Positions 18,119 through 56,903 of a stretch of 64,000 bases of DNA are shown piece by piece. Origin of the DNA: an uncultured Paracoccaceae bacterium. Lineage in GTDB: Bacteria > Pseudomonadota > Alphaproteobacteria > Rhodobacterales > Rhodobacteraceae. Under the pieces are notes generated by a model that saw only the letters and a list, made by a program, of their open reading frames with translations, had not been told where the DNA came from and searched no databases. Both the position numbers and the translations under genes were made by a program. Location of the stretch: the NCBI GenBank assembly GCA_913061275.1, contig CAJXSR010000001.1, forward strand, positions 124,001 to 188,000. The letters are read 5' to 3'. Position 1 is the stretch's first letter; the number at the start of each line of letters is the position of its first letter.

Positions 18119-18472
18119 ATGAAAGTGCTTTGGTTTATAGCTGGTTGCACCTGTGTGGCACTAGGTACCATTGGCATTATCCTGCCCCTACTGCCTACCG
18201 TTCCATTTTTACTGTTAGCCGCAGTGTGTTTTGCAAAATCATCAAATAAAGCACATAGCTGGCTGATAAATCATAAAATACTTGGCCCACCAATTCAAGA
18301 TTGGTACAGTAGCGGTGCAATTCGAAAGCCTGCCAAAATTGCTGCAAGTGTTTGTATTATTACTGCTTTTATTCTGTCACTAGCGTTTAATATCGTCTGG
18401 TGGGCCTTGGCCTTACAGGCAATCGTTTTAACTTGTGTATCTGTTTTTATTTGGAGCCGCCCAGAGGCCTAG
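18119..18472 (+). CDS. YbaN family (DUF454) small inner-membrane protein
   Basis: A 117-residue protein with three or four hydrophobic helices. GTIGIILPLLPTVPFLLLA is the conserved DUF454/YbaN opening, followed by a soluble loop with GPPIQDW and GAIRKPAKI. Its function is not known. It begins one base after the hemW stop, and its 3' end overlaps the convergent parB gene by 26 bp, so the last residues of both proteins share DNA. Confidence 0.85.
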   Translation: MKVLWFIAGCTCVALGTIGIILPLLPTVPFLLLAAVCFAKSSNKAHSWLINHKILGPPIQDWYSSGAIRKPAKIAASVCIITAFILSLAFNIVWWALALQAIVLTCVSVFIWSRPEA

Positions 18473-19379
18473 CAGATAATAATTGGCAAAGCCCATCAAG
18501 TTGTTCTAGTGAATCATAAGATATAGTCACAGACCCTGTGCCGTTTGCCTCTTGATGGTTAATCGATACTTTCATGCTTAAGTTAGCCGTCAGATCATTT
18601 TCTAGAACGATTGTATCCGCATCTTTTTCAATAGATTTTACTTTATTTCTTGCTGGTGCAGCATCACCATCTAAATGGCTCTTTTTCGCTAAACGTTCTG
18701 TTTCACGTACCGATAGGCCTTTTGAAACCACAATAGCAGCTAATTTTGCTGGGTTATCTGCCGCTACTAACGCTCGCGCGTGACCAAAAGACAAATCACC
18801 AGATCGCAATAGGTTTTGAACACCTTCTGGCAAGTGCAATAGGCGCAATATATTTGCAATATGGCTTCTACTTTTTCCTAATGCTTTTGCCAACTTTTCT
18901 TGTGTATGCCCATAACTGTCCATTAATTGCCTAAACCCCAAAGCCTCTTCAACTGGGTTTAGGTCTGTTCGCTGAACATTTTCAATTATGGCAACCTCTA
19001 GCACCTCTGTATCATCCATCTGGCGAACAATAACCGGAACTTCGTGCAACTGCGCCAACTGAGCTGCTCTCCAGCGTCGCTCCCCTGCAACTATTTGATA
19101 TAAATCAGTTTTATCAGGGTCAACACGGACGATTATGGGTTGAATAATACCTTTTTCAGAAATGGATTGTGCCAACTCTTCCAAATCATCCTGAACAAAA
19201 TCCTGTCTTGGTTGGTTTGGGTTTGCAGCAACTTTCTCAATAGGAACTAAAAGTTCAGACTTTACCACTGCAGAAGTTATCTCACTTGCATCGGAAGGTG
19301 AAATTGGTTCGGCATCAATATCTGCCATTAGTGCAGATAAGCCCCTGCCTAGGCCTCTTTTTTCATTTTTCTTATTCAT
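18447..19379 (-). CDS. parB: Chromosome partitioning protein ParB
   Basis: CTPase that loads at parS sites near the origin and spreads to form the segregation complex. The 310 residues show the N-terminal ParA-stimulating KRGLGRGLSALMAD, the CTP-binding GERRWRAAQLA segment, a helix-turn-helix DNA-binding region (LAKALGKSRSHIANILRLL), and a C-terminal dimerisation domain. It overlaps parA by 4 bp and lies in the run rho-mnmE-mnmG-rsmG-parA-parB; two parS sites are 1-3.5 kb away. Confidence 0.97.
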   Translation of the reverse strand: MNKKNEKRGLGRGLSALMADIDAEPISPSDASEITSAVVKSELLVPIEKVAANPNQPRQDFVQDDLEELAQSISEKGIIQPIIVRVDPDKTDLYQIVAGERRWRAAQLAQLHEVPVIVRQMDDTEVLEVAIIENVQRTDLNPVEEALGFRQLMDSYGHTQEKLAKALGKSRSHIANILRLLHLPEGVQNLLRSGDLSFGHARALVAADNPAKLAAIVVSKGLSVRETERLAKKSHLDGDAAPARNKVKSIEKDADTIVLENDLTANLSMKVSINHQEANGTGSVTISYDSLEQLDGLCQLLSARPLGGSK

Positions 19380-20206
19380 TTTATTTCCAATGGCTTAGAT
19401 GGTTTCTTACTGGTTTGGCGTCGTATAAACTCTGCCGCTAAACGCCTGTAGGCAATACTGCCCCTACTTGAAGAATCATATATAATACCTGGCAATCCAA
19501 ACGAAGGCGCTTCGCTTAGTCTAACATTTCTTGGCACAACCGTTTCAAACACCAGTGCGCCCAGATTATCACGCACGTCACTTTCAACCTGCCCAGACAG
19601 GTTATTCCGCTTGTCATGCATCGTAAGCACAATACCTTCAAAAACAAGCGACTTATTAATAGTATCGCGCACTTCGCGCACTGTAAGCATTAGCTGTGAA
19701 AGCCCTTCTAAGGCAAAAAATTCGCATTGAAGCGGAACCAGAACCGAGTGGCTAGCAGCTAAGGCATTCAAAGTCAGCAAATTCAAAGATGGTGGGCAAT
19801 CAATTATGATATAATCCATTCCCTCTGTAAATTTTTTATTACTAAGCGATTGTTTTAAACGTAATATTCTTCCACGATCCTGTATTAACTCAACATCGAC
19901 AGAGCTTAAATCCGTTGTAGACGGCGCAATAAATAAGTTATCTACGCTGGTTTTTACCATACAATCGACAATATCAGTGCGATCAACAATTACATCATAC
20001 ATCGTGATCTTTCGATCCCTTGCATCAATACCCAACCCTGTAGAAGCATTACCTTGGGGATCAAAATCTATAATCAGTGTTTTTTTGCCCGCTAAGGCCA
20101 AAGCTGCTGCTAAATTAATAGCTGTGGTTGTTTTGCCCACGCCGCCTTTCTGATTGGCTACAGAAACAATTTTCGGTGTGTTATTGGTATTTTCTTGGTC
20201 ATTCAC
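19376..20206 (-). CDS. parA: Chromosome partitioning ATPase ParA
   Basis: Deviant-Walker ATPase that moves ParB-bound origins across the nucleoid. It has 276 residues, with Walker A KGGVGKTT at residues 20-27 (signature Lys20 plus catalytic Lys25), the A' motif LIIDFDPQGNAST, and the B motif YIIIDCPPSLNLLTLNA. It overlaps parB by 4 bp and rsmG by 8 bp, so it is translated from the same message. This is the chromosomal, origin-linked parA rather than a plasmid copy, judging by its neighbours. Confidence 0.97.
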   Translation of the reverse strand: MNDQENTNNTPKIVSVANQKGGVGKTTTAINLAAALALAGKKTLIIDFDPQGNASTGLGIDARDRKITMYDVIVDRTDIVDCMVKTSVDNLFIAPSTTDLSSVDVELIQDRGRILRLKQSLSNKKFTEGMDYIIIDCPPSLNLLTLNALAASHSVLVPLQCEFFALEGLSQLMLTVREVRDTINKSLVFEGIVLTMHDKRNNLSGQVESDVRDNLGALVFETVVPRNVRLSEAPSFGLPGIIYDSSSRGSIAYRRLAAEFIRRQTSKKPSKPLEIK

Positions 20207-20834
20207 GTTCTAAATTCCAAACTTTAAGGATCACACCTGTATCATCAGAAATGCTTTTAGTCTTTTGAGACTGAAACCGCCATGAATCAAGGGCCTTTTC
20301 AACCTCTTTATCACAGCCCTTACCTTTCAAAAACAGGCAAAAAGCGTTATCCGTTAAAAATTTGTATGAAAGATCAAATAACGTATCTACGGGCGCCAAT
20401 GCCCTTGCAGAAACTACATCTGCTTGCAAATTTTGTACGTTTTCTATCCGATCTCCGATTATTTTAGTATTAAGATATGTTTCACGTGAAACATTTTTAA
20501 GAAACGCACACTTTCTTATGTCGCTTTCAATTAAATAAAACTTAACATTAGGCGCCTGATGCTTTGCTAATATTGCCAAAACCAACCCTGGAAACCCACC
20601 GCCAGATCCAATATCAAGCCAAATATTAAGATCTATGGGGCGATGTTGCCAAATTTGAGCCGAATCAATAACGTGTCGTTGCCAAACATCCTCTATTGTT
20701 GATTTACCCACTAAATTTATGGTCTTATTCCATTTAATAAGTAAATTTACTAAAACCTTAAGATCGTCAATAGCTTCCTTAGATACATCTAATTCATTAA
20801 AAAGAGTGTTCTGAACAGTTTCTTCATTACTCAT
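20199..20834 (-). CDS. rsmG: 16S rRNA (guanine(527)-N(7))-methyltransferase RsmG
   Basis: Methylates G527 of 16S rRNA using S-adenosylmethionine. It has 211 residues, with the SAM pocket [17 protein letters not shown] at about 75-91 and preceding [10 protein letters not shown] perfect parS site is embedded in the reading frame and encodes the peptide NVSRET. The gene overlaps both mnmG (4 bp) and parA (8 bp). Confidence 0.95.
20478..20493. promoter_or_regulatory. parS centromere site inside rsmG
   Basis: TGTTTCACGTGAAACA is a perfect 16-bp palindrome identical to the bacterial consensus parS. ParB binds it to nucleate the partition complex. It lies within the rsmG coding sequence, 5.4 kb from the proposed origin. 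Confidence 0.93.
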
Positions 20835-22702
20835 GCGCTTTTATTAGATCGCGCGACACGAATCTTCCCCAATAGCAATGTAAGTGCGGCAGGCGTCATG
20901 CCATCAATCCGGCCAGCCTGCGCAAGTGTGGCTGGGCGTACTGTTGTTAATTTTTGCTGTAACTCGTTTGATAGACCCGGAATACCCACATAATCAAACC
21001 CGTCAGGAATACTAAACTGTTCATCGCGGCGCATTGCCTGAATATCATTTTTTTGCCGGTCAATCAGTTTTGCATAAACTGCATCGCGCTCTACTTGTTG
21101 TGCTGTGTTATTATCTAACTCTTTGATTTCAGGCCATATGTTAGACAAAACAGATAAATCAATATCTCTAAATGCTAATAATTCCAAAGCATTGCGACGA
21201 ATGCCATCTTGGTTAATTTTGATACCACTCTTACCTGCCTCATTGGGTGTTATCGTTGTTTGAGATAGCATGACTTTTGCAGCAGTAAGGCGTTCCATTT
21301 TCTTTAAAAAATGCAACTTACGTTCATCATGTACCAAACCTAAATCAATACCTTTTTGCGTAAGCCTTTGGTCTGCATTATCGGCGCGCAATGAAAGTCG
21401 ATATTCGGCACGAGAAGTAAACATCCGGTAAGGTTCAGACACTCCACGCGCTGTAAGGTCATCAATCATAACGCCAATATACGCTTCAGCGCGATCAAAA
21501 TGAACAGCTTCTAGGCCGAAAGCGTTGCGACTTGCATTTAATCCAGCCACCAAACCTTGGGCTGCCGCCTCTTCATAACCTGTTGTGCCATTTATTTGGC
21601 CTGCGAAATACAAACCTGATATGTTTTTTAGCTCTAATGAAGGCTTCAGTGATCTTGGATCAATGTAATCATATTCTATAGCATATCCTGGTTGTAATAT
21701 TCTAACCTCTTCAAGACCCACAATGGATTTTACATATTCTTCCTGCACTTCAACTGGCAGAGATGTCGAAATGCCGTTTGGATAAATTACATTATCAGTA
21801 AGGCTTTCGGGTTCAAGAAATATTTGATGTGATGATTTATCTGCAAACCGAATTATTTTATCTTCAATTGAGGGGCAATAGCGTGGTCCGACACCATCGA
21901 TATGACCACCGTACATAGCTGATTTTGAAAGGTTTTTTTCAATAATCTCGTGTGTTTTTTCGTTGGTATGGGTGATACCACATGATATTTGCCGGGCGAA
22001 AGCATTCTTGTGCATAAAGGAAAATAGTGAGGGCTCATTATCTGCCGGCTGAAATTCTAGGTTGTCCCAATTTATAGTTTTTCCATCAAGGCGTGGTGGC
22101 GTACCAGTTTTCAAACGCCCCATAGGTAAATTAAAACTATCCAACCGTTCTGCTAGAGGAATTGTAGCTGCGTCACCCATTCGGCCACCAGAACGAGATA
22201 TATTTCCAATATGAATAACACCGCGCAGGAAGGTTCCAGTCGTTAAAATAACCGAAGCGGACTTTAACTTTGTGCCGTCCGCTAAAGTAACACCTTTTAT
22301 TACATTTCCTGTTTGCAATAGATCGGCGACTTCCGCCTCGATTACATTTAAACCTTCTTTATTAGTAAATTCTTCCTGCATGGCCGATTTATACAAAGCA
22401 CGGTCAGCCTGTGTTCTTGGCCCTTGTACCGCAGGGCCTTTACGTCGGTTAAGCAGGCGAAATTGAATACCTGCCTTATCTGCAACGCGGCCCATAGCAC
22501 CATCCAGCGCATCTATTTCACGCACCAAATGGCCCTTGCCCAAACCACCTATCGCTGGGTTACAAGACATTTCGCCTATTTTAGAAAATTGATGCGTTAC
22601 CAATGCCGTTTTCGCACCCGCTCGCCACGCCGCTTGTGCCGCTTCTGCCCCCGCATGACCACCACCTATAACAATTACATCAAAATGTTTCACGTGAAAC
22701 AA
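20831..22702 (-). CDS. mnmG: tRNA uridine-5-carboxymethylaminomethyl modification enzyme MnmG (GidA)
   Basis: FAD-dependent partner of MnmE that installs the cmnm5 group on U34 of certain tRNAs. The 623 residues have the FAD-binding [16 protein letters not shown] at about residues 10-25, the conserved [44 protein letters not shown], and a C-terminal helical domain. The start codon region itself is a parS site, so the N-terminus reads MFHVKHF. It is 15 bp downstream of mnmE and overlaps rsmG by 4 bp. Confidence 0.97.
22686..22701. promoter_or_regulatory. parS centromere site at the mnmG start
   Basis: A second perfect TGTTTCACGTGAAACA palindrome, starting one base inside the mnmG start codon. 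It is about 3.5 kb from the proposed origin and 2.2 kb from the other parS copy. It forms codons 1-6 of mnmG (peptide MFHVKH). Confidence 0.93.
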
Positions 22703-25431: not shown

Positions 25432-25884
25432 TTAAAAGGGCCGTGCAATTACCATCACAACAATAATAATCATTAAAACCGTAGGTATTTCATTTGCAAG
25501 CCTATAACCCTTACCTGATAATCTGGGCATTCCTTTTGTAAGTAATTTTCTTTCTTTTGAAAGCCAACCGTGAAAAGCTGACATAAGAATTACCATTATT
25601 GCTTTTACCCAAGGCCAACCTTCAGACCAATCAATAATACCAGGTGTAAAGACCATTAAAAGCCCACAAACCCATGTGATAATCATTGCCGGATTTATTA
25701 TACGTTTAAGTAGTAAATATTCCCAGCGTTCTAATGTCACTTTAGGATCAAATGCTTTAGGGTCAGTTTCTACATGGTACACAAATAAACGTGGTAAATA
25801 GAGCATACCTGCCATCCATGAAATAACAGCAATTACATGTAATGATTTTATCCAAGGATAAATATTTGAAAGAATGTCAGTCAT
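25432..25884 (-). CDS. hemJ: Protoporphyrinogen oxidase HemJ
   Basis: Membrane enzyme that oxidises protoporphyrinogen IX to protoporphyrin IX in heme synthesis, in place of HemG or HemY. I start it at the ATG at 25884 (MTDILSNIYPWIKSLHVIAV), giving 150 residues, the normal length. An open frame continues upstream to 26115, but that extension is low-complexity, AT-rich and unlike any HemJ. Key features are the conserved His in SLHVIAVISWMAGMLYLPRL and four or so membrane helices. It is the last leftward gene before the proposed origin. Confidence 0.9.
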   Translation of the reverse strand: MTDILSNIYPWIKSLHVIAVISWMAGMLYLPRLFVYHVETDPKAFDPKVTLERWEYLLLKRIINPAMIITWVCGLLMVFTPGIIDWSEGWPWVKAIMVILMSAFHGWLSKERKLLTKGMPRLSGKGYRLANEIPTVLMIIIVVMVIARPF

Positions 25885-26298
25885 TATTAACCCTAGTTTA
25901 GAAGACCCTATAATAAATAATATATAGTAAGGTTGTTGTTTGTAGTAGGAACAGTGAGTAATAAGGATAAAATTTAAATGCACAATTATCATTATAAATT
26001 TTTTGCGTGATAAGTTATAAACATCTTGGTAGTAAATCTGATTAAGATAATAAAAACAATATGTTAAAAATATTATGGGCGGTATATAAATCTGAATAAT
26101 AAATTCTGTTAACATTTAACAATGATAGAAATTAAAGTTATTCCTTGTGGACAATAAAATTGGAAGCGGGGGTAATATTTAGAAAACCACATGCTTTTAA
26201 AATATGTGGAAGTTTTGTTAATCCCTTACAAAATGTATCTACAAGTTATAAACAGGCTACAGGTGTATATTTTAACATAGAAAATCAAAGGTAAACTC
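25885..26298. other. Proposed chromosome replication origin (oriC)
   Basis: This 414-bp gap between divergent hemJ and maf holds no convincing gene and is strongly AT-rich. DnaA-box-like 9-mers with one mismatch to TTATNCACA are TTATAAACA at 26015-26023 and 26246-26254, and TTGTCCACA (reverse strand) at 26146-26154. Less exact copies are near 26183 and 26205. Transcription runs outward on both sides, parS and parAB are within 8 kb, and base composition of the + strand shifts from C-rich to G-rich across it. In Caulobacter the origin is also next to the maf-aroE-coaE-dnaQ block, on the hem-gene side. The function is inference. Confidence 0.65.
26012..26254 (+). repeat. Direct repeat AAGTTATAAACA, two copies in the proposed oriC
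   Basis: The 12-mer AAGTTATAAACA occurs at 26012-26023 and again at 26243-26254, 231 bp apart and in the same orientation. The last nine bases of each match a DnaA box except at one position. A related TTATAAACG is at 25363-25371, between rho and hemJ. Confidence 0.75.
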
Positions 26299-26895
26299 GT
26301 GACAACTGTTGTTCTTGCATCTGGATCTAGTATTCGGGCTAAGCTTTTACGCGATGCTGGTGTTAGATTTTCTACGAAAGTAAGCAAAATTGATGAAGCA
26401 TCAATAATTGCATCTTTAAAGACGGAAAAAGCAAAACCGAAAGATGTTGTAGATTTATTAGCAGAATATAAAGCCCAGCGCGTTGCTTTGAAATATAGCG
26501 ATGCGATCGTAATTGGGTGCGATCAAATATTGGTCTGTGATAAAGAAATATATGAAAAGGCACAAACGCTTGATGCGGCACGTTCAACACTTCAGTCTTT
26601 GCGCGGTAAAGCACATCAATTAATGTCAGCAGTTGTTATTTTTGAACAGGGAAAACCAGTTTGGCGCCATATGGGGCGGGCACAACTGGTTATGCGTGAT
26701 TTCTCAGATTTATATTTAGAGAATTATATTGAGCAAAACCGCGATACAATTTTAAGTTCTGTAGGGTGCTATAGGTTAGAAGAAGAAGGTGTGCAGTTAT
26801 TTTCACACATCCAAGGCGACTATTTTACAATTTTAGGGATACCCTTATTAGAGGTGCTAGGTTTTCTACGATCTCATGGGGTTTTAAAACAGTGA
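26299..26895 (+). CDS. maf: Maf-like nucleotide pyrophosphatase
   Basis: A Maf-family protein that hydrolyses non-canonical or excess nucleoside triphosphates; family members differ in preference (dTTP/UTP or modified pyrimidines). It has 198 residues from a GTG start, opening VVLASGSSIRAKLLRDAGV, with VIGCDQILVCD carrying the catalytic Asp and the C-terminal GDYFTILGIPLLEVLGFLR. It is the first rightward gene after the proposed origin and overlaps aroE by 4 bp (GTGA). Confidence 0.9.
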   Translation: MTTVVLASGSSIRAKLLRDAGVRFSTKVSKIDEASIIASLKTEKAKPKDVVDLLAEYKAQRVALKYSDAIVIGCDQILVCDKEIYEKAQTLDAARSTLQSLRGKAHQLMSAVVIFEQGKPVWRHMGRAQLVMRDFSDLYLENYIEQNRDTILSSVGCYRLEEEGVQLFSHIQGDYFTILGIPLLEVLGFLRSHGVLKQ

Positions 26896-27725
26896 AGACA
26901 GATAAAATTATTAAGGCAGCCGTAATAGGATGGCCAATTAACCATAGTAAGTCACCGCTAATTCACGGGTATTGGCTGGCTAAAGCAGGTATTCTAGGCA
27001 GTTATGAAGCTATAGGAATTGCACCTGAAAGCTTTAATGCAGGTATTAGTAATTTGGTATTGCAAGGTTATGCTGGGTGTAACGTTACGATACCGCATAA
27101 AGAAACAGCGCTGAATAAGGCGGATAGTGTTTCTGATAGGGCGCAGGCGATAGGCGCTGCAAATACGCTGGTTTTTAAAGATGGTAAAATTTTCGCGGAC
27201 AATACAGATGGTATTGGGTTTATTAATAATTTGAAACAAGGCGCACCTGATTGGCGCGCATCTGCTGGAACGGCACTTGTTTTGGGTGCAGGGGGTGCCG
27301 CACGCGCTATCGTTTATGCATTGTTGCAAGATGGTGCGCCAAAAGTTTTAATTGCTAACCGTACTTTGGAAAAAGCTAAAATACTTTCAGATTTTTTTGG
27401 TGATAAGGTTGGCGTCGTTTCAATAAATGAAGTTCCAGATGCGCTGGGGGAAGTTCATACGTTTGTGAATACAACTGCACTGGGTATGACGGGGCAACCT
27501 GAGTTAATTATTGATATTTCCAGCCTTCCTAAAACTGCATTGGTAACAGATATTGTATATAATCCCTTAACAACTGATTTGTTAAAGCAAGCCCAAGGCC
27601 TTGGTTTGATAACTGTAGATGGTTTGGGAATGCTACTGCACCAGGCAGTGCCGGGGTTTGAGGCTTGGTTTGGTGTGCGACCAGTTGTTGACGTTGAATT
27701 GCGCCAGAAAGTTTTGGCTGGGTGA
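26892..27725 (+). CDS. aroE: Shikimate dehydrogenase (NADP+)
   Basis: Reduces 3-dehydroshikimate to shikimate in aromatic amino acid synthesis. It has 277 residues from a GTG start; NHSKSPLIHGYWL binds substrate, NVTIPHKETAL carries the catalytic Lys, DNTDGIGF the paired Asp, and LVLGAGGAARAIVYAL is the NADP Rossmann loop. It overlaps maf by 4 bp and coaE by 4 bp. Confidence 0.96.
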   Translation: MKTDKIIKAAVIGWPINHSKSPLIHGYWLAKAGILGSYEAIGIAPESFNAGISNLVLQGYAGCNVTIPHKETALNKADSVSDRAQAIGAANTLVFKDGKIFADNTDGIGFINNLKQGAPDWRASAGTALVLGAGGAARAIVYALLQDGAPKVLIANRTLEKAKILSDFFGDKVGVVSINEVPDALGEVHTFVNTTALGMTGQPELIIDISSLPKTALVTDIVYNPLTTDLLKQAQGLGLITVDGLGMLLHQAVPGFEAWFGVRPVVDVELRQKVLAG

Positions 27726-55889: not shown

Positions 55890-56903
55890 ATGGGTCAATC
55901 AGAAATTGTGGCGGAAGTATGGCGCGGCGCGTTTTTAGAGTGTGTGCATCGCGGGCATATTGCGATTTGTAATGCACAAGGTGAATTGTTAGCAAGTTGG
56001 GGTGATCCTGCGGCGGTAGTTTTGCCGCGCTCATCATGCAAAATGCTGCAAGCCCTTCCGCTGGTAGAAAGCGGTGCTGCAAAGCGGTTTGGTCTGACAT
56101 CTGAACACCTTGCTTTGTCATGCGCATCGCACAACGGTGCGTTAATTCATACAGGCCGGGTCAGCAAATGGTTGAACGGGCTTGAATTAGGTGAAACTGA
56201 TCTGCGTTGCGGCGGACATATGCCTAAAGATGAAGAAGCGGTAAAGGGGTTGATTTGTGGGGATCATTGTTTTGACCAAACCCATAATAACTGTTCGGGT
56301 AAACATTCGGGTTTTTTGACTTTGAACAAACATTTAGGCGGGGATGCCGAGTATCTTGAGATAGATCACCCTGTACAAATTGCTGTGAAGGCAGCACTTG
56401 AAGATATGGCGGGTGAAGATACCCAAGGGTATGCAATGGATGGCTGTTCTGCCCCGAACTTCGCGATGACACTAACGGGATTTGCCCGCGCACTTGGGCG
56501 TATGGCTGACCCAACAGGTTTAGGGTCTGTACGGGAAGAAGCCGCGAAAATGCTGGTTGGCGCAATGGCGAAACATCCTGAATTGGTTGCCGGCGAGGGG
56601 AAGGCCTGTACCGAACTGATGCGTGCAATGGACGGTAAGGTTTCTATTAAAACCGGTGCCGAAGGCGTTTTTGCTGCAATCATCCCTGAGCTGGGCATAG
56701 GCGTTGCGTTAAAGATTGAAGACGGTGCAACGCGTGCATCGGAATGCGCCATTACTGCAATGCTGGTGCGTTTGGGTGTGGCCGATGCAAACCACCCATT
56801 GGTGCAAAAATACCTGTTTTACGATCAACGTAATTGCAATGATTTTTCGGTGGGAACTATTCGACCGAGTGAGGTGATTTATCAGGATGGAGCTGGGTTT
56901 TAG
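55890..56903 (+). CDS. L-asparaginase II family protein (Rhizobium ReAV type)
   Basis: A 337-residue protein of the thermolabile asparaginase II family described from Rhizobium etli, unrelated to E. coli AnsA/AnsB. The key positions line up: PRSSCKM gives Ser48 and Lys51, proposed as the catalytic pair, and NNCSGKHSGF gives Cys135 and Lys138, with Cys186 in MDGCSAPN as the third metal ligand (Cys189 in the Rhizobium enzyme). It would make aspartate and ammonia from asparagine. This comparison relies on memory of the Rhizobium work. Confidence 0.85.
   Translation: MGQSEIVAEVWRGAFLECVHRGHIAICNAQGELLASWGDPAAVVLPRSSCKMLQALPLVESGAAKRFGLTSEHLALSCASHNGALIHTGRVSKWLNGLELGETDLRCGGHMPKDEEAVKGLICGDHCFDQTHNNCSGKHSGFLTLNKHLGGDAEYLEIDHPVQIAVKAALEDMAGEDTQGYAMDGCSAPNFAMTLTGFARALGRMADPTGLGSVREEAAKMLVGAMAKHPELVAGEGKACTELMRAMDGKVSIKTGAEGVFAAIIPELGIGVALKIEDGATRASECAITAMLVRLGVADANHPLVQKYLFYDQRNCNDFSVGTIRPSEVIYQDGAGF

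Follow-up and report, generated by a model that had tools for sequence, protein, structure and literature searches.

The intergenic region between hemJ and maf, at positions 25885-26298, is in our analysis the putative chromosomal replication origin (oriC) of this bacterium, a reading to which we give a probability of roughly 0.94. An origin had been placed between these two genes in an earlier sequence-only reading, and the call holds up because the region combines a local skew minimum, a strand asymmetry at third codon positions that does not depend on gene orientation, nearby parS sites and parAB genes, and a position that is conserved in relatives, where it carries DnaA-box clusters. As an origin it is ordinary, its sole notable trait being the weakness of its DnaA boxes.

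Genomic setting of the hemJ-maf gap

The stretch of DNA analysed (the window) is 64 kb long and corresponds to 124001-188000 on contig C1; the draft genome to which it belongs totals 3.39 Mb in 56 contigs. The genus is apparently Amylibacter (Rhodobacterales), judging from the best named relatives by maf, which are mostly Amylibacter together with other Rhodobacteraceae (best 80 of at least 127 matches, the window's own genome possibly not among them). The gap is 414 bp long with a G+C content of 26%, and a search of the genome for a second copy found none. Of all 400-bp stretches of the window, the one richest in A+T is 25821-26220, which overlaps the gap and gives it a candidate A+T-rich unwinding region.

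On the left the gap is flanked by hemJ (25432-25884, minus strand; profile TIGR00701) and on the right by maf (26299-26895, plus strand; profile of the Maf family nucleotide pyrophosphatases). Leftward from the gap the gene order is hemJ-rho-mnmE-mnmG-rsmG-parA-parB, with profile matches to HemJ, Rho, MnmE, MnmG (GIDA), RsmG (GidB), a ParA-type ATPase and a ParB-family protein, and rightward it is maf-aroE-coaE-dnaQ, with matches to Maf, AroE, CoaE and DnaQ. These profiles agree with the earlier description of an AT-rich gap between a leftward and a rightward run of genes. The accompanying statement that the gap holds no convincing gene probably stands as well: an Rfam search gave no match within it, and we read the open frame 25432-26115, which would lengthen hemJ into the gap, as a chance frame, since in the 150-aa form HemJ is matched by its profile from residue 9 onwards, and aligning the gap between relatives requires indels. 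A sub-threshold Rfam match to the S15-leader, at 27316-27407, lies outside the gap and was judged to be due to chance.

Strand asymmetry switches at the gap

Within the 64-kb window, the cumulative G-C curve has its minimum at 25836 and the keto disparity at 25920, with the purine disparity minimum at 25558. The plain local flip at the gap is partly a gene-orientation effect, as a smaller flip of plain skew also exists at pyrC-dnaB. Considering that genes also diverge at the gap, we compared the coding-strand third-position GC skew (GC3) of open frames of at least 150 aa on the leading and lagging strands about the gap, a comparison independent of gene orientation. The GC3 skew was 0.226 for the 29 leading frames of the window vs -0.142 for the 18 lagging ones (p 1.4e-8), and for contig C1, represented by the window plus seven sampled stretches, the comparison of 79 with 69 frames gave p 3.6e-15; these and all further skew p values assume independence between genes or stretches. 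Seven of the eight C1 stretches were used, L167, which overlaps L166, being left out. On contig C1, where the window's own genome was tested, the gap thus sits at a switch of strand composition asymmetry. Plain skew is weak on C1 beyond the window, and one of the four left stretches, at 40-60 kb, is of the wrong sign (+0.060). A skew minimum clearly elsewhere, which would speak against the origin call, was seen neither in the window nor in the sampled contig C1, the one of the 56 contigs that this check covers.

Four relatives were sampled at 20 stretches of 20 kb each: G022, G003 and G035, whose chromosome is a single contig, and G030, where it is split over two. The GC3 test for an origin at hemJ-maf gave p 1.5e-10 for G022, 8.9e-6 for G003, 3.9e-8 for G035 and 1.8e-21 for G030, and the best GC3 origin lay 11 kb (G022), 12 kb (G030), 77 kb (G035) and 559 kb (G003) from hemJ-maf. 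Plain GC skew also differed between the right and left sides of hemJ-maf (p 0.0099 in G022, 0.0217 in G003, 0.0003 in G035 and 0.0001 in G030); the best plain-skew point includes hemJ-maf itself in G022 and lies at a distance of 12 kb in G030 and of 78-248 kb in G035. The misfit of G003, where the best plain-skew point is ~559 kb off and 23% of the grid points beat hemJ-maf, may reflect an inversion on one arm, which would account both for the plain skew being positive on both sides of hemJ-maf and for dnaA being on the lagging strand, as it is not in the other six of the seven genomes compared. The presumed inverted segment would adjoin the origin and fall within the part of G003:C1 that runs from 3.32 Mb across 0 to 0.2 Mb.

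We also considered an origin beside dnaA and rejected it: dnaA is 135-215 kb from maf in the seven genomes with both genes on one contig. The window's own genome has dnaA on a contig other than that of the window.

The chromosome partitioning genes and sites are close to the gap as well. Exact copies of the parS sequence TGTTTCACGTGAAACA are found at 20478-20493 and 22686-22701, at distances of 3.2 and 5.4 kb from the gap, in agreement with the two nearby sites noted earlier, and they are the only sites within two mismatches in the genome. Profile matches place parB (18447-19379) and parA (19376-20206) beside them, both on the minus strand.

The gap is conserved in relatives

A divergent hemJ-gap-maf arrangement with a gap of 361-512 bp was found in 27 of 33 genus genomes, the remaining ones being five in which no maf ortholog was found and one cut at a contig end. 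One such genome, G011 (98% complete, 40 contigs), has no maf ortholog, only a distant paralog with an internal stop, and the flank of its origin may differ. Among named genomes (best 80 of at least 127 maf matches), 72 of the 80 loci have divergent hemJ and maf with hemJ no more than 1.5 kb away; the other eight, with no hemJ within 1.5 kb, were left out, and 19 of the 72 had already been counted among the gaps. Boxes with at most one mismatch to the DnaA-box consensus TTATCCACA are enriched in 72 of 81 gaps (p<=0.05, mononucleotide shuffles), the window's own gap being among the nine without such enrichment. The relatives seem to start replication at the same hemJ-maf place.

Alignment of 78 gaps (those with N or outside 350-520 bp were left out; one genus gap, L031, contains 33 N) showed the four best-conserved 15-base blocks to be 25925-25939, 25956-25970, 25938-25952 and 26246-26260, which represent a block rich in trinucleotides with a neighbouring tandem-box block and, next to maf, a terminal box. 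Of the 54 alignment columns that 75% or more of these gaps conserve, the window's gap matches 83%, which is outside the 15 lowest values and indicates that it is not decayed as a whole.

In nine of 16 loci from elsewhere in the family and class, three or more strong boxes are clustered in a 400-bp span upstream of maf (raw counts), while the other seven loci have no such cluster. While the window's origin adjoins maf, six of those nine clusters are 1.2-2 kb from it. In Caulobacter, the maf block presumably adjoins the origin, Cori.

The DnaA boxes of the gap are weak by sequence

No exact TTATCCACA is present in the hemJ-maf gap, and exact copies elsewhere in the genome are not clearly enriched (39 vs 35 for a control pattern). 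The gap's best-scoring site is TTGTCCACA at 26146-26154 on the minus strand (11.75 bits; block 26141-26155), which has one change from TTATCCACA. The terminal box at 26246-26254 on the plus strand, where the consensus of the 78 gaps is TTATCCACA, reads TTATAAACA (two changes, 8.2 bits), and the same TTATAAACA at 26015-26023, also on the plus strand, does not align to a conserved box. The sequence-only reading had listed these three as boxes one position off the consensus, which is correct for 26146 and has to be amended to two changes each for 26015 and 26246.

Counted at no more than one mismatch, the gap's boxes number one and are not above chance (p 0.18, 200 mononucleotide shuffles), and the window as a whole, with 21 such sites vs 17.4 expected, also holds nothing above chance. 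Weak box-like sites of at least 2 bits are in excess, with 8 in the gap vs 2.8 expected and none of 300 dinucleotide shuffles reaching 8; at thresholds of 4, 6, 8 and 10 bits, the p values are 0.15, 0.12, 0.03 and 0.08. Comparison of box scores among 79 of the 81 gaps (two over 520 bp were dropped) showed the sum of the five best sites to be lowest in the window's gap, at 29.9 with the next at 37.0. The box matrix was learned from gaps outside the eight closest loci, so that the comparison with the other gaps is partly circular, the matrix having been trained on them; the window's gap is also the lowest among the eight loci kept out of training. These eight are the best maf matches among those listed, the window's own locus included, and were chosen without a tree.

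In the eight closest loci, the terminal box keeps TTAT..ACA, with positions 5-6 being AA in one, TA in three, GC in three and CA in one, and never CC; the one-change form TTATGCACA is found in three of them. Over the 78 gaps, C occupies these two positions in 79% and 87%. The sequence TGTACAAGTTAT, ahead of the end of the terminal box (window 26238-26254; loci L003-L009), is exact in six of the eight closest loci and differs at one base in the window. Its length exceeds that required of a DnaA box, and a different protein might bind there. Taken by their sequence, the boxes of the gap are weak, and the origin looks like a low-affinity one.

Strong boxes upstream of dnaB and the specificity of DnaA

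Elsewhere in the same genome, four strong DnaA boxes are found upstream of dnaB (L228:8672-8800; G000:C7 ~56672-56800), scoring 14.8-16.7 bits, two of them exact and convergent copies of TTATCCACA and two with one change. Together with the hemJ-maf boxes being the weakest of 79 gaps, this cluster could mean that the origin has moved, for example to the pyrC-dnaB intergenic region (G000:C7 ~56.7 kb), and that hemJ-maf is a decaying former origin. However, one or more boxes scoring at least 8 bits are present upstream of dnaB in 29 of the 30 genus loci, also where the hemJ-maf boxes are strong, and since they are common to strong-box origins too, the dnaB-upstream boxes look like old promoter sites. 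(G005 has none; dnaB start positions were extrapolated from alignments, and the chance level is ~0.2 per 420 bp, from 34 sites of at least 8.2 bits per 64 kb.) Moreover, dnaB is ~1.5 Mb (G003) and ~1.0 Mb (G022) from hemJ-maf, the strand asymmetry of the window's own genome switches at hemJ-maf, where the parS sites are also found, and the 83% match at conserved columns is not that of a gap decaying as a whole. We consider a moved origin very improbable, although a recent move, with the skew not yet erased, might have left the strand asymmetry at hemJ-maf in place.

The weakness of the boxes could alternatively reflect an altered DnaA box read by a DnaA of changed specificity, with TTATAAACA as the true box, and the sequence-only reading had indeed proposed that the lineage may use altered boxes. 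The two copies of AAGTTATAAACA in the gap, the only ones in the window, would fit this, as would the terminal-box pattern of the eight closest loci, but positions 5-6 vary among these loci instead of shifting to one new sequence. At the same time, the motif RDHTT[V/I] of DnaA domain IV, which we take to be the box-reading motif, is intact in all 29 proteins found among the 33 genus genomes (four gave none), and TTATCCACA boxes are present upstream of dnaB in the same genome. DnaA therefore very probably still reads TTATCCACA, the proposal of altered boxes is not borne out, and we regard a changed specificity as having only a slim chance of being correct.

The four genus genomes in which no DnaA C-terminal domain was found are G007, G021, G026 and G027; the DnaA ATPase family gave no more than a weak match in G007, G021 and G026 and none in G027. 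Listed completeness is 100% for G026 and 95% for G027, and the missing DnaA is probably due to assembly gaps.

With hemJ-maf as an origin that has lost its high-affinity boxes in this species, the much stronger, distant dnaB-upstream cluster could act as a DnaA sink or feedback site, tying helicase supply and initiation timing to one DnaA-ATP pool, with the origin filled last via cooperative weak sites and a trio module. This is a tentative idea, which we think unlikely to hold.

A possible unwinding module on the hemJ side

Towards hemJ, the gap presents, in order, boxes, a spacer, trinucleotides and A+T-rich DNA, which is the order of the basal unwinding system (BUS) as outlined in PMC8287927, where boxes and a short spacer are followed by a trinucleotide motif next to A+T-rich DNA. 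The boxes are a degenerate tandem pair on the minus strand at 25953-25970, TTATCCTTA (two changes) and TTACTCACT (three changes), coinciding with the relatives' conserved box block 25956-25970. The trinucleotide-rich block at 25934-25949 on the plus strand, with TAGTAG at 25943-25948, is DnaA-trio-like when read 3'-5' and is among the best-conserved blocks. The A+T-rich element at 25909-25929, adjoining hemJ, is a conserved block of the 78 aligned gaps and a candidate unwinding element or hemJ promoter. The likeness to the outlined BUS is loose, in that the window has a degenerate sequence at both boxes and no more than two clear 3'-GAT-5' trios.

Applying the loose rule as published (a box with at most two mismatches, a spacer of at most 16 and at least three NAN trios), we found 64 of 79 gaps, the window's own included, to have a BUS-like match on the hemJ-ward strand, vs 13.4 (maximum 20) in mononucleotide shuffles, and 37 of 79, again including the window's own, to have one on the opposite strand. 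The window's gap thus fits the rule with a 2-mismatch box, yet does so on both strands, and shuffles pass in 13.4 of 79.

Least probable of all is that the gap is a mere divergent promoter region without origin function: two divergent genes do begin at its ends, and the conserved A+T-rich block could contain the hemJ promoter, but box clusters in 72 of 81 gaps, an orientation-independent skew switch and adjoining parS sites are unexpected of an ordinary promoter region.

Discussion

Position, strand asymmetry, conservation, box-like sites and parS can be read directly from the DNA, and from them we infer DnaA occupancy and affinity, the order of assembly, the place of opening and origin activity. 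Assembly of DnaA-ATP would start at boxes of mostly low affinity, located centrally in the gap and on its maf side, and proceed towards the tandem-box/spacer/trinucleotide module that adjoins the A+T-rich stretch near hemJ. This A+T-rich DNA would then open and DnaB be loaded both ways, and the nearby parS sites with ParAB would move the new origins apart.

Initiation in this species is probably a cooperative filling of weak sites, because the boxes score below those of relatives while no difference in kind is seen in the DnaA motif or in the strong dnaB-upstream sites. Such filling has been published for Caulobacter crescentus Cori, which is outlined as having moderate G-boxes and very weak W-boxes that are filled cooperatively, with stronger DnaA boxes at some promoters (PMC4468827, PMC4285127), so that the likeness is one of weak boxes at the origin and stronger ones elsewhere. 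The two origins differ in that the window's gap has neither a TTAA-N7-TTAA CtrA site nor TCCCCA; CtrA, GANTC, IHF and W-box patterns are all absent from it. The TTAA-N7-TTAA site is found in three of 28 genus gaps (the window's own, with none, included) and in one of 51 others, and in this respect the gap does not resemble a Caulobacter-type CtrA-controlled origin.

Within the same family, an Ori-Finder study of Rhodobacteraceae is summarised as assigning an oriC to 101 strains and leaving eight without one, owing to a lack of box over-representation and/or composition differences (PMC6699656). The evidence it outlines is of the kind used here, namely a GC disparity minimum, DnaA boxes and parAB. 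The terms 'hem' and 'maf' do not occur in the main texts of PMC6699656 and PMC6315104, and no hemJ-maf origin is described in the titles or abstract openings of the related origin papers listed.

An Amylibacter-like origin in a conserved hemJ-maf gap means that origins would be placeable in draft genomes by synteny, even where the counting of DnaA boxes fails. Moreover, relatives with the same DnaA recognition motif form a natural series from strong to very weak boxes, which could be used for testing how box affinity sets the timing of initiation.
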